NCBI GenBank assembly: GCA_020631655.1
Contig: JAHDGV010000005.1
Coordinates: forward strand, 1-40,325
DNA from: Chloroflexota bacterium
GTDB lineage: Bacteria; Chloroflexota; Anaerolineae; Promineifilales; Promineifilaceae
Direction: 5' to 3'
Length of the DNA stretch: 40,325 nucleotides
Shown: one piece after another, positions 26,598 through 32,315 of the stretch
Position numbering within the stretch: position 1 is the first letter of the stretch
Layout: each line of letters starts with the position of its first letter
Notes under the pieces: model-generated
The model's database searches: none
What the model was told of the DNA's origin: nothing
The model's input: only the letters and a program-made list of their open reading frames with translations
Translations under genes and position numbers: made by a program

Positions 26598-27938
26598 TCA
26601 ATCGACCGGTTTCAGGCGAAACCACATTAATCCCAACAGGCAAAATGCCGCAATCCCGCCAAGCAGAAAGACCCAGTTGGGCCCAATCCCTTCAAAAATA
26701 GCACCACCAACTAGGGGGCCTACAACCGAGCCCAGTGCCGTAAAGGCTGCGGCCGTTCCCAGCACTTCGCCGATCTTTGATGGGTCGGCCCGTTTGGTTA
26801 GCAAACTGCTGATATTTGGGTTCAGCATGCCTATGCCAACAGGCACCAAGAGCATGGTAAACAGCATGTAGGTCAATGCGCCGTTCCCTTGCTCAGCCCC
26901 CTCGGCCGGTAAAAGCTTTAACTGTTCGTCTAAGGTGTCTTGCGGAGTATTAGCAGATCCCTGCTGTAGCTCAGCCACCAAAGCATCGCGCGAATACCAT
27001 GTGACAGGCTGAGACGGGGTAAATCCGGTTAGCACAAAGCCCAACCCAAATAAAAACAGCCCCGTGAAAACGAGTTTTTGTTCCCCAAAGCGTTTGTTCA
27101 GCGGGCCGGCCAGTCCCCCCTGCATGATGGCCGAGATAATTCCAAAGACGCTGAAAAAGATAACGTTACCCAAGCTGTTAAGCCCCAGTTTGGTTAAGGT
27201 AAATGGGGCAAATGTCAGCTGAAAAGAACCAAAAATCACTTGATTTAGAAAGACAAATAAAAAGATGATCCCCAAGGCTGGGTGAAGCATATAGTCTTTC
27301 ATCCGGCCGAAGTTCAAGCCGCGCTCTGCCGTTTCCGCTTTGCCACGTTTTTCGGGGGGATGGGTTTCTTCAAGCACAAACGTTGTGAGAATCACGCTGA
27401 CAAATGCAAAGCAAGCGGCTAAAAACGCAGGAGCGCTGTAATTATTGCCGCTAATCCATAAGGCAAGCCCACTCAACGCGGGGCCGATGACAAAACCAAT
27501 CCCAAATGTTGCACCGATCAAACCGAGGCCGCGTGCCCGATTTTCTTCGTCGGTGCTGTCTGTGATTACTGATTGGGCCGTTGAGAGATTGGCACCGGTA
27601 ATCCCGTCGAGAATGCGGGACAAGAAGACGATCCACAGCGCATTTGAAAAGCCCAGAATGATTAGGCTGATAAACGTCCCCATTTGAGCCGTGGCTAAAA
27701 CCGGCTTCCGGCCGACTCTGTCTGACAAGCCCCCCAAAATAGGGGCAAAAATGAACTGCATGGCCGGATAGGCTGAACCCAGAAGCCCAATCGTAAAGGC
27801 ATCCGCCCCAAATGCAATGGCGTAATATGGTAGAACCGGGATCAAAATAGTTAGCCCCAACACGTCTACCAGTACGACAACAAGCACGGGAACAAGCTTT
27901 TTAAAATCGAGTGAGTTTTCTTCTTTTGCTTCGGCCAA
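26598..27938 (-). CDS. MFS transporter (TCR/Tet-like drug:H+ antiporter group)
   Basis: TTG start; LGGLSDRVGRKPVL motif; about 12 TM segments. Confidence 0.9.
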   Translation of the reverse strand: MAEAKEENSLDFKKLVPVLVVVLVDVLGLTILIPVLPYYAIAFGADAFTIGLLGSAYPAMQFIFAPILGGLSDRVGRKPVLATAQMGTFISLIILGFSNALWIVFLSRILDGITGANLSTAQSVITDSTDEENRARGLGLIGATFGIGFVIGPALSGLALWISGNNYSAPAFLAACFAFVSVILTTFVLEETHPPEKRGKAETAERGLNFGRMKDYMLHPALGIIFLFVFLNQVIFGSFQLTFAPFTLTKLGLNSLGNVIFFSVFGIISAIMQGGLAGPLNKRFGEQKLVFTGLFLFGLGFVLTGFTPSQPVTWYSRDALVAELQQGSANTPQDTLDEQLKLLPAEGAEQGNGALTYMLFTMLLVPVGIGMLNPNISSLLTKRADPSKIGEVLGTAAAFTALGSVVGPLVGGAIFEGIGPNWVFLLGGIAAFCLLGLMWFRLKPVD

Positions 27939-28044
27939 GTGGCTGTTTCCTTTACGAAATAATAAGAGATGGAATTAAAACCTGATTGAGTTGATTCACC
28001 AATCTTCAATACTAAAAATCTAACAGAGCAAAGCGCGGATCACA

Positions 28045-28060
28045 CCATACTTTTGCACAT
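28045..28060 (+). promoter_or_regulatory. Candidate AraC-family binding site, 16-mer CCATACTTTTGCACAT
   Basis: Exact match to 30184-30199 in the araC-like gene promoter. Confidence 0.6.
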
Positions 28061-28150
28061 TTTCACTACATTTTTGATCTTCATTCTCCTTGCTCGAATC
28101 GTCACAATCATTCTGTGTGACATGACTTTTGACTAAAAAGGAGAATTTAA

Positions 28151-29128
28151 ATGGTCCGAAACAAATTTGTACTAATCAGCCTGCTAGCCTTTGCTTTTGT
28201 GCTAGCGGCTTGCGGTGGCTCGGCCGAACCCGTGCCTGAAACAGATGGTGAAACATCTAGCAATACAGAACCAACTGAAGTCGTTATTGTGGTTGAAGAA
28301 GCAACGGAACCTGTTGTTGAAGAACCAGAGCCGGAAGCGGTTCGTGTGGAAGGCATCCCAGTGCCAACAACATCAGACTACCCATCAGGCGCAGAGATAA
28401 TGGTGTATGACTTTGGCGATATGGTGCTCCACGCGTTTGTGAACCCGCCTCAGGGTGCAGGCAACGGCACCTATGTGATTGAAAGCGCCAACACGCTCGT
28501 CTTAATCGATGCTCACTTTGCAGAAGAGTCATCTCGGGCATTCAGAGAGTATGTAGACGCCATCGGTAAACCGATTGACCGGATTTATGCGACTCATGAG
28601 CACCCAGATCACATCAATGGATTAGGGAATGCATTTGCTGACATCGAAAGCTATGCCTCGGCCGAAGTTGTTGAACTTGCTGCTCAAGCGGGCATCACAA
28701 TCGACAATGTTGTGGGTGAAGGGAGCGAGACGATTGACGGCATTAACTACGAATATCAGATTTTCAAAGATGCTGAATCGGAAGAAGCGCTTGTGATTAA
28801 ATTCCCCGATTACGCCGTCATGGCAACGGGTGACCTGATCTACAACAACTACCACATGGTCATGAATCCAAACATTCCAAACTGGATTGATCAATTGGCT
28901 CAGCTTGAAGCGATGACAGAGTATGAACTGCTTTTATCAGGGCATGGGGCTCCGGCCGACCGAAGCGTTTACGCTGAATCAACCGATTATCTTGAAACTG
29001 CTTGGGAAATCTATAATGAGATCGATGACCCAGACGCGTTTCAGGCCGCTTTGGTTGAAGCATACCCTGATTATCAAGCGCCATTCTTTTTAGGATTGGC
29101 GGCACAGCGACTCTACCCAAAACCGTAA
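28151..29128 (+). CDS. MBL-fold metallohydrolase lipoprotein
   Basis: AAGGAG RBS; lipobox FVLAAC; metal motif THEHPDH. Confidence 0.9.
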   Translation: MVRNKFVLISLLAFAFVLAACGGSAEPVPETDGETSSNTEPTEVVIVVEEATEPVVEEPEPEAVRVEGIPVPTTSDYPSGAEIMVYDFGDMVLHAFVNPPQGAGNGTYVIESANTLVLIDAHFAEESSRAFREYVDAIGKPIDRIYATHEHPDHINGLGNAFADIESYASAEVVELAAQAGITIDNVVGEGSETIDGINYEYQIFKDAESEEALVIKFPDYAVMATGDLIYNNYHMVMNPNIPNWIDQLAQLEAMTEYELLLSGHGAPADRSVYAESTDYLETAWEIYNEIDDPDAFQAALVEAYPDYQAPFFLGLAAQRLYPKP

Positions 29129-29217
29129 AGTGAATCGGCTGTCTCCATCAATCAAGATGGCCGAGCGGTAAAACGGATAAACATTCGGCAACCCCAGAGG
29201 TCAAGAATGACTCAGAA

Positions 29218-29248
29218 GGCGACTCATCACTAAAAATGAGTCGCCTTT
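29218..29248. terminator. Bidirectional terminator between convergent genes
   Basis: aggcgactcat-cactaaaa-atgagtcgcct, 11-bp perfect stem; its distal end reaches the stop of the convergent minus gene. Confidence 0.8.
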
Positions 29249-30098
29249 ATTCTTGATTCAGAGCCGCCATCACCGGCCAATCGTAGAGCCCGATGCGGCC
29301 GACAAACTCATAGTTTCCATCCCCCGTCGGCCGATAGACAAACGAATCCCCTTCCTCAAACGTATCATCCAAATCGCGCCAGTTGCGCAACGTACCGATG
29401 TGGGCCACCACAATTGTGTTGGTGCCAGACTCAGGTTCAGTTGCCAAAACCTCTCCAAGCGTTTCTCTCAGCTCAGTACGTGACACAACAAACGGAACAT
29501 CAAACGCTAAAATGGCGGTTTCAAGCGTTCGGCAGTATTGGGTGCTGGTGATTTTGCTGATGGGTAGCTCCAGCTGATCATACGCGTTGCGAATCATAAG
29601 GGCTTCATCCCGGCCGCGTTCGCTCAAAATCCGCTGTGTCTCACAACTCCCCAAGCTGACATCTGTATCCCCCCGACTGCGATCGGTGTGGGTGTGGCGC
29701 ACATAAATCACATAGCCGCCCTCATAGAGCTTGTTGAGCAGTGACTCAAGCTCGGCCGGATCAGAAAGCTCAAAATTGTCTGGCTGACATTCGGCCGCTA
29801 TTCCGGCCGTGATGACATTGACCCATTTATTGAGATCAAGCAACGCATCGTTTTGAGCGTTAAACTCCGCAAACGCCTGTTCAATTAAAAATTGCTGGCC
29901 GGTAACACTGCACAATTCTTCTGGCGGAAGTTCCTCAGCAACAGGTGCCGGTGTATTTGTTGGCTCTGGGTCAACTTCAACACCAACTTCTTGAATGGCG
30001 TCAGGAATTGGATCGGGCGGCGTGGCACATGCAAAAAGTAGGCCAAGGCTTAACAAAACAACTAATCTTTTTATGAGCATTGGTTTCTCTCTATCCAT
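29247..30098 (-). CDS. Histidine phosphatase-family lipoprotein
   Basis: Lipobox LLFAC; YVIYVRHTHTD, SERGRDEALMIRNAY, STQYCRTLETA, VVAHIGTLRNW; start approximate (30098 or 30080). Confidence 0.85.
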   Translation of the reverse strand: MDREKPMLIKRLVVLLSLGLLFACATPPDPIPDAIQEVGVEVDPEPTNTPAPVAEELPPEELCSVTGQQFLIEQAFAEFNAQNDALLDLNKWVNVITAGIAAECQPDNFELSDPAELESLLNKLYEGGYVIYVRHTHTDRSRGDTDVSLGSCETQRILSERGRDEALMIRNAYDQLELPISKITSTQYCRTLETAILAFDVPFVVSRTELRETLGEVLATEPESGTNTIVVAHIGTLRNWRDLDDTFEEGDSFVYRPTGDGNYEFVGRIGLYDWPVMAALNQE

Positions 30099-30173
30099 CA
30101 CAAATTTTCTCCCCCACAGATGCTGTGGTAAGTTGGAGTTATACTTCAAGCTACTAAACCGATGATATTTGAC

Positions 30174-30229
30174 TGTGCAAATTCCATACTTTTGCACATC
30201 ATTTCTATAGTTTTACTATTTTTTGCACA
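30174..30229 (+). promoter_or_regulatory. Candidate AraC-family operator: TGTGCAAA-N9-TTTGCACA inverted repeat plus a second TTTTGCACA
   Basis: TGTGCAAA 30174-30181, TTTGCACA 30191-30198, TTTTGCACA 30221-30229, upstream of AraC-family gene. Confidence 0.6.
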
Positions 30230-30253
30230 GGTCGCTTTTGATACTCTAACTTT

Positions 30254-31141
30254 ATGCAAGACGATAAAGACGTATTTTCAGAAATCCCTGTTATCCCGCA
30301 CGCTCAAGAGTTGGTCACGATCAAAGCCTACATTGGCCAAGGGACCAGTCAATTTTGCTGTGTAGACCACCCCTTTCATCGGCACGCCTTCTACGAAATC
30401 GCTTGGGTCAGTCATGGGGCATCTTCATACTATGTCGACTTTAAAAGCTACGACGTCCCGCCGGGCTCACTCGTTTTTATCTCGCCCGGGCAAGTCCACC
30501 AGTGGCATGAGATCCAAGAAAAATCCCAGCTTACGGTAATTGGATTTGTGCCCGAGCTTTTTGCGATGGATATCACCGATGTGCAAAAGACGCTGATTAA
30601 TTTGCCGTTTTTTGTGGAAGATGCTTCCCCCGTTTACACCGTTCCCCAATCGCTTACCCCGATATTCGACCAGCATTTCAAAACGGCCGTTGCTCGTGCC
30701 TATGTCGATCCGTCCCAAGCGGAAACGCTCATTCGTGCTTATCTAAACCTGATTTTGACCGAAGCTCAAAATACACTTGCAAACAACCCAACTCCCAAAG
30801 TAACTGATCAGCCTGCCCCAATTCGACTAACCCGTCGCTTTCGACTGTCTGTTGAAAAAAACTATTTGCAACGGATTCAGGTTCAGGATTATGCGGATCA
30901 ATTGGGAGTCTCCACAAACCATCTTGTTGAAACGGTGCGTCAAACGGCCGGGCAAACGCCTAAACGGATCATTCAAGACAGATTGTTGCTTGAGGCCAAA
31001 AGATTGTTGGCTTACTCAACACTTTCAGCCGCCGAAATTGGAATCGAGCTCTCATTCCCCAACTCGTCGCAGTTCGGCCGCTGGTTCCGCACAAACGAAG
31101 GGATGGCTCCAGGGCAGTTTAGGCAACAGGTTTTGCAATAA
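30254..31141 (+). CDS. AraC-family transcriptional regulator with N-terminal cupin-like sensor domain
   Basis: HRHAFYEIAWVSHG...SLVFISPGQVHQWHE; C-terminal QDYADQLGVSTNHLVETVRQTAGQTPKRIIQDRLLLEAKRLL...IGIELSFPNSSQFGRWFRTNEGMAPGQFR. Confidence 0.93.
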   Translation: MQDDKDVFSEIPVIPHAQELVTIKAYIGQGTSQFCCVDHPFHRHAFYEIAWVSHGASSYYVDFKSYDVPPGSLVFISPGQVHQWHEIQEKSQLTVIGFVPELFAMDITDVQKTLINLPFFVEDASPVYTVPQSLTPIFDQHFKTAVARAYVDPSQAETLIRAYLNLILTEAQNTLANNPTPKVTDQPAPIRLTRRFRLSVEKNYLQRIQVQDYADQLGVSTNHLVETVRQTAGQTPKRIIQDRLLLEAKRLLAYSTLSAAEIGIELSFPNSSQFGRWFRTNEGMAPGQFRQQVLQ

Positions 31142-31173
31142 CATATATCCCGTTTACTGAGTTTGCCGCCATT

Positions 31174-32262
31174 TTAGCGGCCGAACCAGCGCAAGGTCAG
31201 CTGATCATACACCCCATTTTCTTGCACCCTTAGCAGAGCCTGATTAATCTCTTCTGTGCGGGAACTCCCTTGAGGCAACACAATCCCATAATTCTCATTT
31301 TGAAAGATGTTGGGAACCAGCTGAACGTCCCCTGCAATTGCTAGGTTGGAAAAATACTGCAGCACGGGTGCATCATACACCAGCGCATCGGCTGACCCAT
31401 TTTGTAATGCCTCAAGCCCCGCCTGAACATCAACAACGGTTGAATGGGAAATCCCACGCTCGGTCAGGTATGCGGCCGATGTGGTACCGGGAAGCGTGAT
31501 CACTTCGTGGTTGCGCAAATCTTGCGGCCCGGCAATGCCGGATTCAAGTCGGCCAACGGTCAGGCTACTTGTAACGGTCGCCGTAAAGTACGAGACCAAG
31601 AATAGGCTCATCAGCATCCAGACCACCGCCAACAGTCGGCCGCGACTGTCTTTAAGGACCGTGTCCCCGTATCCCACCGTCGAGGCAGTAACAATGGTCC
31701 AATAAAAAGCTCCCCAAATTCCACGCAGGTAACTCCCTTGAAAATCAGGATTTTCATCTCGCTCCAGCAGCCAGGCGACATGCGCCACCAGTAATAGCGT
31801 GGCTAATGTTGCAATCAAAAATCGAACCAGATTCGGAGTGAAAATAGATCTAAACGCCGCCAAAGCCCCTTGGTCAACATCTGCCGCCGTCATGATTTGC
31901 AATCCAGCCGCAAAAAATGGGAGCGAAAAATCGACGACTTCTTCGCGGGAAGCCCGAATGCTCGTTGCTCCAATCCCCAAGTCAACGTCTCCCGCCTGAA
32001 CAGCCTCGAGCAGTGCAGATACATTTTCTAGCTCAACAAACTCGTATTCAATCCCAGCTTCATTGGCGATTGCGTCCCACAAGTCAACGCTAAATCCACT
32101 TGGCACAGGCCCATCTAAAAATACAAACGGCTCGACAGGATTGATGCCAACCCTAAGCACCCCATCACTTTGAGCCTGCGCAGTAGCCCCAAAGGCCAAG
32201 CCAACCAGCACGGCAACAAACAGACACACAAAAACTTTAGTTTTTCGTAGTGTTTCCCACAT
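31174..32262 (-). CDS. Prokaryotic ionotropic glutamate receptor-like channel (GluR0-like: PBP lobe, M1-P-M2 pore with TVGYGD, PBP lobe)
   Basis: LRVGINPVEPFVFLDG...DFSLPFF; pore WGAFYWTIVTASTVGYGD; M2 FLVSYFTATVTSSLTV; second lobe ADALVYDAPVLQYF...YGIVLPQGS. Confidence 0.88.
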   Translation of the reverse strand: MWETLRKTKVFVCLFVAVLVGLAFGATAQAQSDGVLRVGINPVEPFVFLDGPVPSGFSVDLWDAIANEAGIEYEFVELENVSALLEAVQAGDVDLGIGATSIRASREEVVDFSLPFFAAGLQIMTAADVDQGALAAFRSIFTPNLVRFLIATLATLLLVAHVAWLLERDENPDFQGSYLRGIWGAFYWTIVTASTVGYGDTVLKDSRGRLLAVVWMLMSLFLVSYFTATVTSSLTVGRLESGIAGPQDLRNHEVITLPGTTSAAYLTERGISHSTVVDVQAGLEALQNGSADALVYDAPVLQYFSNLAIAGDVQLVPNIFQNENYGIVLPQGSSRTEEINQALLRVQENGVYDQLTLRWFGR

Positions 32263-32315
32263 TTTCCCTTCTCCACACACCTAAATTTGACATGTAGTCT
32301 ACCAACAAGCTTGAC

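Follow-up and report, generated by a model that had tools for sequence, protein, structure and literature searches.

The gene cluster at 26598-31141 of the window (the whole 40,325-nucleotide stretch of a Chloroflexota contig, JAHDGV010000005.1, that was analysed) raises the question of why two divergent intergenic regions, one between the genes for an MFS transporter and an MBL-fold lipoprotein and the other between those for a histidine-phosphatase-like lipoprotein (HP) and an AraC-family regulator (Table 1), carry the same 16-mer, and which of the four genes it serves. The first-pass annotation had taken the shared word, CCATACTTTTGCACAT, as very unlikely to be accidental and as the mark of an AraC regulon comprising all four genes. 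Exact copies are indeed present at 28045-28060 and 30184-30199, and no other 16-mer is repeated exactly and in direct orientation within the 40 kb of the window. When both intergenic regions were shuffled 2000 times with dinucleotide counts preserved, the longest word that the two had in common was 14, and a length of 16 was never attained. The genome-wide motif search that had been proposed was run by pattern on the window's own genome (G000; other G numbers denote related genomes). In this 6.9-Mb assembly the exact 16-mer is confined to these two places, the next-best matches differ at 2 of the 16 positions, and at up to three mismatches there are 69 places versus 26 for the reversed pattern, not every near-match having been placed. 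Further AraC targets may be missing, because G000 is 82% complete.

Table 1. Features of the locus, in window coordinates
Feature	Position	Strand	Remarks
MFS transporter gene	26598..27938	-	Pfam MFS_1 1.8e-54; nearest named relatives are Tet(A)-type effluxers
Segment absent from G002 (edges approximate)	28029..29246	.	MBL gene and promoter, between MFS and HP; blastn
Putative operator O1 of the MBL gene	28045..28081	+	half-sites CATACTTTTGCACAT (28046-28060) and TACATTTTTGATCTT (28067-28081), 21-bp period
GTCACA-N9-TGTGAC inverted repeat	28101..28121	.	between O1 and MBL start
MBL-fold lipoprotein gene	28151..29128	+	HxHxDH (H149, H151, D153, H154), Glu209, D228, H265
Terminator-like hairpin	29216..29247	.	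between convergent MBL and HP; AAGGCGACTCAT-CACTAAAA-ATGAGTCGCCTT, read from sequence
HP, histidine-phosphatase-like lipoprotein gene	29247..30080	-	NCBIfam PRK06193.1-3 4.1e-27, below cut-off
Segment without G002 counterpart (edges approximate)	30085..31173		AraC gene and promoter, between HP and KCh
Inverted TTTGCACA half, HP side	30174..30181	-	left arm of palindrome; outside conserved site
Putative operator O2 of the AraC gene	30184..30220	+	half-sites CATACTTTTGCACAT (30185-30199) and TATAGTTTTACTATT (30206-30220)
Possible third half-site CTATTTTTTGCACAG	30216..30230	+	31 bp from first half-site; 10/14 positions match it
AraC-family regulator gene	30254..31141	+	AraC_binding/cupin domain and HTH_18; weak full-length similarity to HpaA
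Channel gene KCh	31174..32280		

The conserved feature is a direct repeat with a 21-bp period, CATACTTTTG-N14-A(T/G)TTTT, of which the 16-mer is one half and a weaker copy, 21 bp downstream of it in both promoters, is the other; this layout is the usual one in AraC-type operators. The second half is found at +21 in all three operators examined, those of the window MBL and AraC genes and that of the MBL orthologue in a related genome of another genus (G006), and +21 is the best offset at both MBL promoters. At the AraC promoter, +31 ranks first (10/14) and +21 second (8/14), so that a third half-site is possible there. With up to one mismatch allowed, the A-N-TTTT-N-A form occurs in G000 at the MBL and AraC promoters only, O1 being oriented toward MBL and O2 toward AraC. 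The 16-mer is very probably an operator of the adjacent AraC protein, controlling both araC and the MBL lipoprotein gene.

Among 52 genomes of the family, exact CATACTTTTG-N14-ATTTTTGA occurs twice, upstream of the window MBL gene and upstream of its G006 orthologue, where both halves and the spacing are identical and the encoded protein is 67% identical. The best ungapped match between these two upstream regions covers 28 of 36 bases and scores 20; in 300 shuffles the score never exceeded 17. With one mismatch, the two-half pattern gave a single match in the 52 genomes, and this falls in a predicted reading frame. Inspection of direct-repeat matches covered eight loci; one-mismatch matches at L124 and L129 in G006 and at L120 in G002 are internal to predicted frames and were attributed to chance, and another in G002 (L125, 1185-1216, minus strand) lies just beyond the end of a predicted frame. 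An AraC orthologue was not found in the G006 assembly, which is 78% complete and has only about 0.4 kb of contig in front of the MBL gene, and the region upstream of the closest AraC orthologue, in G020, has no recognisable site (best, 11/16 positions). For AraC regulators of Anaerolineae, a limited literature search turned up no described operator, and in Chloroflexi nothing directly relevant on AraC operators or on AraC plus MBL; the site offers a concrete operator of this kind that can be tested.

The AraC protein has a C-terminal double HTH (Pfam HTH_18 8.4e-19, HTH_AraC 3.8e-08) and an N-terminal ligand domain (AraC_binding 9.6e-11), and its H42, H44 and H82 are invariant in 13 relatives. 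A scan of named genomes with the protein alone gave no relatives, and one with a two-sequence alignment gave, apart from two distant HTH matches, only the G020 record (CALECP010000062.1, from an uncultured Anaerolineae bacterium). Neighbourhoods of AraC and MBL genes recur. The G020 orthologue (63%) lies directly upstream of, and on the same strand as, the gene for an 804-aa protein with two MBL domains; an AraC paralogue in G000 (C83, 36%) is divergent from a gene whose MBL lipoprotein product has 830 aa; and a G006 paralogue (C282), split across two frames in the assembly, is also divergent from an MBL lipoprotein gene. In the 150 bp that precede 9 of the 9 AraC paralogues tested, which are not fully independent, the sense strand carries GG(T/C)ACTTT, in its longer form TGG(T/C)ACTTT and related to the window site, against 0.06 expected, a figure that overstates the evidence because the motif was chosen by eye from those promoters; on the antisense strand it is upstream of none of the nine. 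In a tree, the window AraC groups with that of G020 and, further off, with two paralogues in other gene contexts, and the motif-bearing paralogues form two other groups. We also observed this motif, as TTCTGGTACTTTTTT, upstream of an unlinked MBL paralogue gene in G000 (contig C875, L107, 3-1127); no AraC gene adjoins it on the contig, and it may be a distant target.

The inverted repeats that had been described are present, namely TGTGCAAA-N9-TTTGCACA at 30174-30198, an extra TTTTGCACA at 30221-30229 and GTCACA-N9-TGTGAC upstream of the MBL gene. Since TTTTGCACA alone is not enriched as a motif (22 places at up to one mismatch, versus 20.5 expected), the palindrome around TTTGCACA has no statistical support of its own, and the 21-bp GTCACA palindrome is not kept in the region upstream of the G006 MBL gene. 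A 9-bp ACTAAAAAT repeat flanking the MBL segment was considered as an insertion duplication and rejected, its right copy lying within the terminator hairpin.

A separate observation concerns the hexamer CGGCCG, which occurs 122 times in the window versus 7.5 expected from base composition, 116 of the 122 being within predicted genes, while other G+C-only palindromes in the window are near or below expectation. The excess is about 3- to 20-fold in most family genomes (in sampled loci, mostly of only a few kb), and three genomes from other families (G052, G056 and G058) show little or none of it. In this CGGCCG resembles a highly iterated palindrome such as the cyanobacterial HIP1 (PMC4390886).

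We consider it probable that an operator of two half-sites with a 21-bp period is bound by the AraC protein and controls araC (through O2) and the MBL gene (through O1), such that AraC and MBL make up the regulatory unit and HP and MFS are older neighbours. The 16-mer would be the strong upstream half of this operator. We infer that the AraC protein, most likely a ligand-responsive activator induced by a small, perhaps aromatic, ligand, would bind O1 and O2, and that the bound protein would then control its own gene and that of the MBL lipoprotein. The wider proposal of the first-pass annotation, that AraC coordinates MFS, MBL, HP and itself as an extracellular detoxification or scavenging module, each divergent region being controlled in both directions, seems unlikely to us. 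Both operators do lie in divergent intergenic regions, with 104 bp separating O2 from the start of HP and 107 bp separating O1 from that of MFS, the inverted TTTGCACA half faces HP, and two-way control by one AraC site is common, as in araC-araBAD. HP could still be controlled from the common AraC-HP intergenic region. Against the four-gene module stands the gene order in sister genomes. HP, which has no Pfam hit, has an orthologue (about 75-76%) in G002 only among the 52 family genomes, and there it adjoins the orthologue (89%) of the MFS protein, whose match to NCBIfam tet_MFS is below the cut-off; the two genes are 97 bp apart on one strand, and the locus has neither an AraC nor an MBL gene and lacks the site. 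The G002 row (C306) reads ABCF, GLX2, rRNA methyltransferase, PDE, KCh, HP, MFS, LDH, and the window is 86-96% identical to it, with 86-95% across KCh, MFS and LDH, apart from the lower value for HP. In G004 (C349) an MFS gene, cut by the contig end, adjoins KCh, with no HP, MBL or AraC gene between them and no site. As a side observation, KCh combines SBP_bac_3, Ion_trans_2 and Lig_chan in one protein, like a prokaryotic glutamate-receptor-type channel.

The breaks in the alignment bear on the four-gene module as well. By blastn, G002 ceases to match the window at about 28028 and matches it again from about 29266, inside the HP gene, and the conserved MFS 5' region ends about 16 bp before O1; O1 therefore belongs to the MBL segment, and O2 to the AraC segment. 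The conserved 5' region of MFS lies outside the segment that bears O1. Elsewhere, AraC orthologues have no link to HP or MFS. Because sister genomes keep rows with HP or MFS that have no AraC or MBL gene and no site, the core most likely consists of AraC and MBL and not of four genes: of the regulon first proposed, the operator for araC and MBL is supported and the coordination of all four genes is not, and the detoxification or scavenging role was a guess that found no support. HP and MFS appear from their synteny to be neighbours in an older local gene order and are only candidate members of the regulon. The present arrangement may have arisen either through a single MBL-HP-AraC insertion and later losses in G002, or through separate gains in G000. 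That the site is bound by another regulator, the AraC gene being merely one of its targets, is quite improbable; such a reading would account for the G020 orthologue without a site and for the G006 site without a detected AraC orthologue, but the 21-bp direct-repeat layout, the restriction of the site to AraC and MBL promoters, the recurrent adjacency of AraC and MBL genes and the related sites upstream of AraC paralogues all argue for the AraC protein as the binder. It is hardly credible that the 16-mer is no operator but was left behind by a mobile element with which the MBL and AraC segments arrived. Both copies do lie within segments missing from G002, but at unequal depth (about 16 bp versus about 100 bp from the segment edge), their similarity continues only through the second half at the 21-bp spacing (31 nt, 81%), the site is also found in G006, and the genome holds no further exact copy. 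The regulation envisaged for AraC and MBL is of a type ordinary for bacteria, and the locus illustrates that a regulator and its enzyme can form a small pair within an older row of genes, a situation that misleads neighbourhood-based guesses at a regulon.

The MBL lipoproteins themselves vary in architecture. The G006 orthologue (L105:2075-3700) carries a fused intradiol ring-cleavage dioxygenase domain (8.2e-25), the MBL lipoproteins at L065:3285-5777 and L061:8757-11171 have two MBL domains per chain, near-identical copies in the case of L065, and ABM is weakly matched by the forms in G020 and C83. Together with the weak likeness of the AraC protein to HpaA, the intradiol fusion and the ABM matches hint, with low confidence, at aromatic or quinoid substrates for the MBL enzymes. 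More broadly, it is tentatively conceivable that in this family a clade of AraC regulators co-expanded with MBL surface lipoproteins (occurring singly, in tandem, or as fusions with intradiol-dioxygenase or ABM-type domains) while regulators and operators co-diverged, with CCATACTTTTG in one branch and TGG(T/C)ACTTT in others, and that these lipoproteins, which have Glu in the histidine zinc site, may process extracellular aromatics or quinoids.

Of the known systems, SphR of Pseudomonas aeruginosa is an AraC-family regulator with local targets, whose tested site consists of two 15-base direct repeats 6-8 bp apart (PMC3900636). The window system resembles it in that the AraC-family regulator lies next to the gene it would control, the genome holds very few sites, and the half-sites are two direct repeats of about 15 bases, spaced 6 bp apart; it differs in that the half-site sequence is unrelated and in that the regulator's own promoter has a site, in its own orientation. 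Among named profiles, the one that the AraC protein matches best over its full length is HpaA, the regulator of 4-hydroxyphenylacetate catabolism (NCBIfam TIGR02297, 4e-27), but with 95.2 bits against a cut-off of 274.65 it is not HpaA, and no hpa genes were recognised near the AraC gene. Like subclass B1 enzymes such as VIM and CcrA, the window MBL has the MBL fold, and B1 metallo-beta-lactamases are the best PDB matches of its model, which is of medium confidence (mean pLDDT 78, residues 14-62 low). It misses the NCBIfam cut-off for subclass B1 (41 bits versus 200), and its metal ligands differ from those of B1 beta-lactamases: HxHxDH, D228 and H265 are kept, but the third zinc-site histidine (His196) is lacking, and in the alignment to VIM its position is taken by Glu209, which is invariant in 7 aligned sequences and may, by this alignment, bind metal. 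The profile of the window MBL also matches Pisa1, one of the type III alkylsulfatases along with SdsA1. In the alkylsulfatases SdsA1 and SdsAP a Glu likewise replaces B1 His196 (PMC5426288), a feature that the window protein shares by sequence alignment only. Unlike them, it has an Asp (Asp228) in place of the second Glu, that at the Cys221 position, and where type III alkylsulfatases have a C-terminal dimerisation domain, its Pfam hits include no alkylsulfatase domain. MBL lipoproteins of this kind, with a Glu replacing a zinc-binding histidine, make up a small enzyme group.
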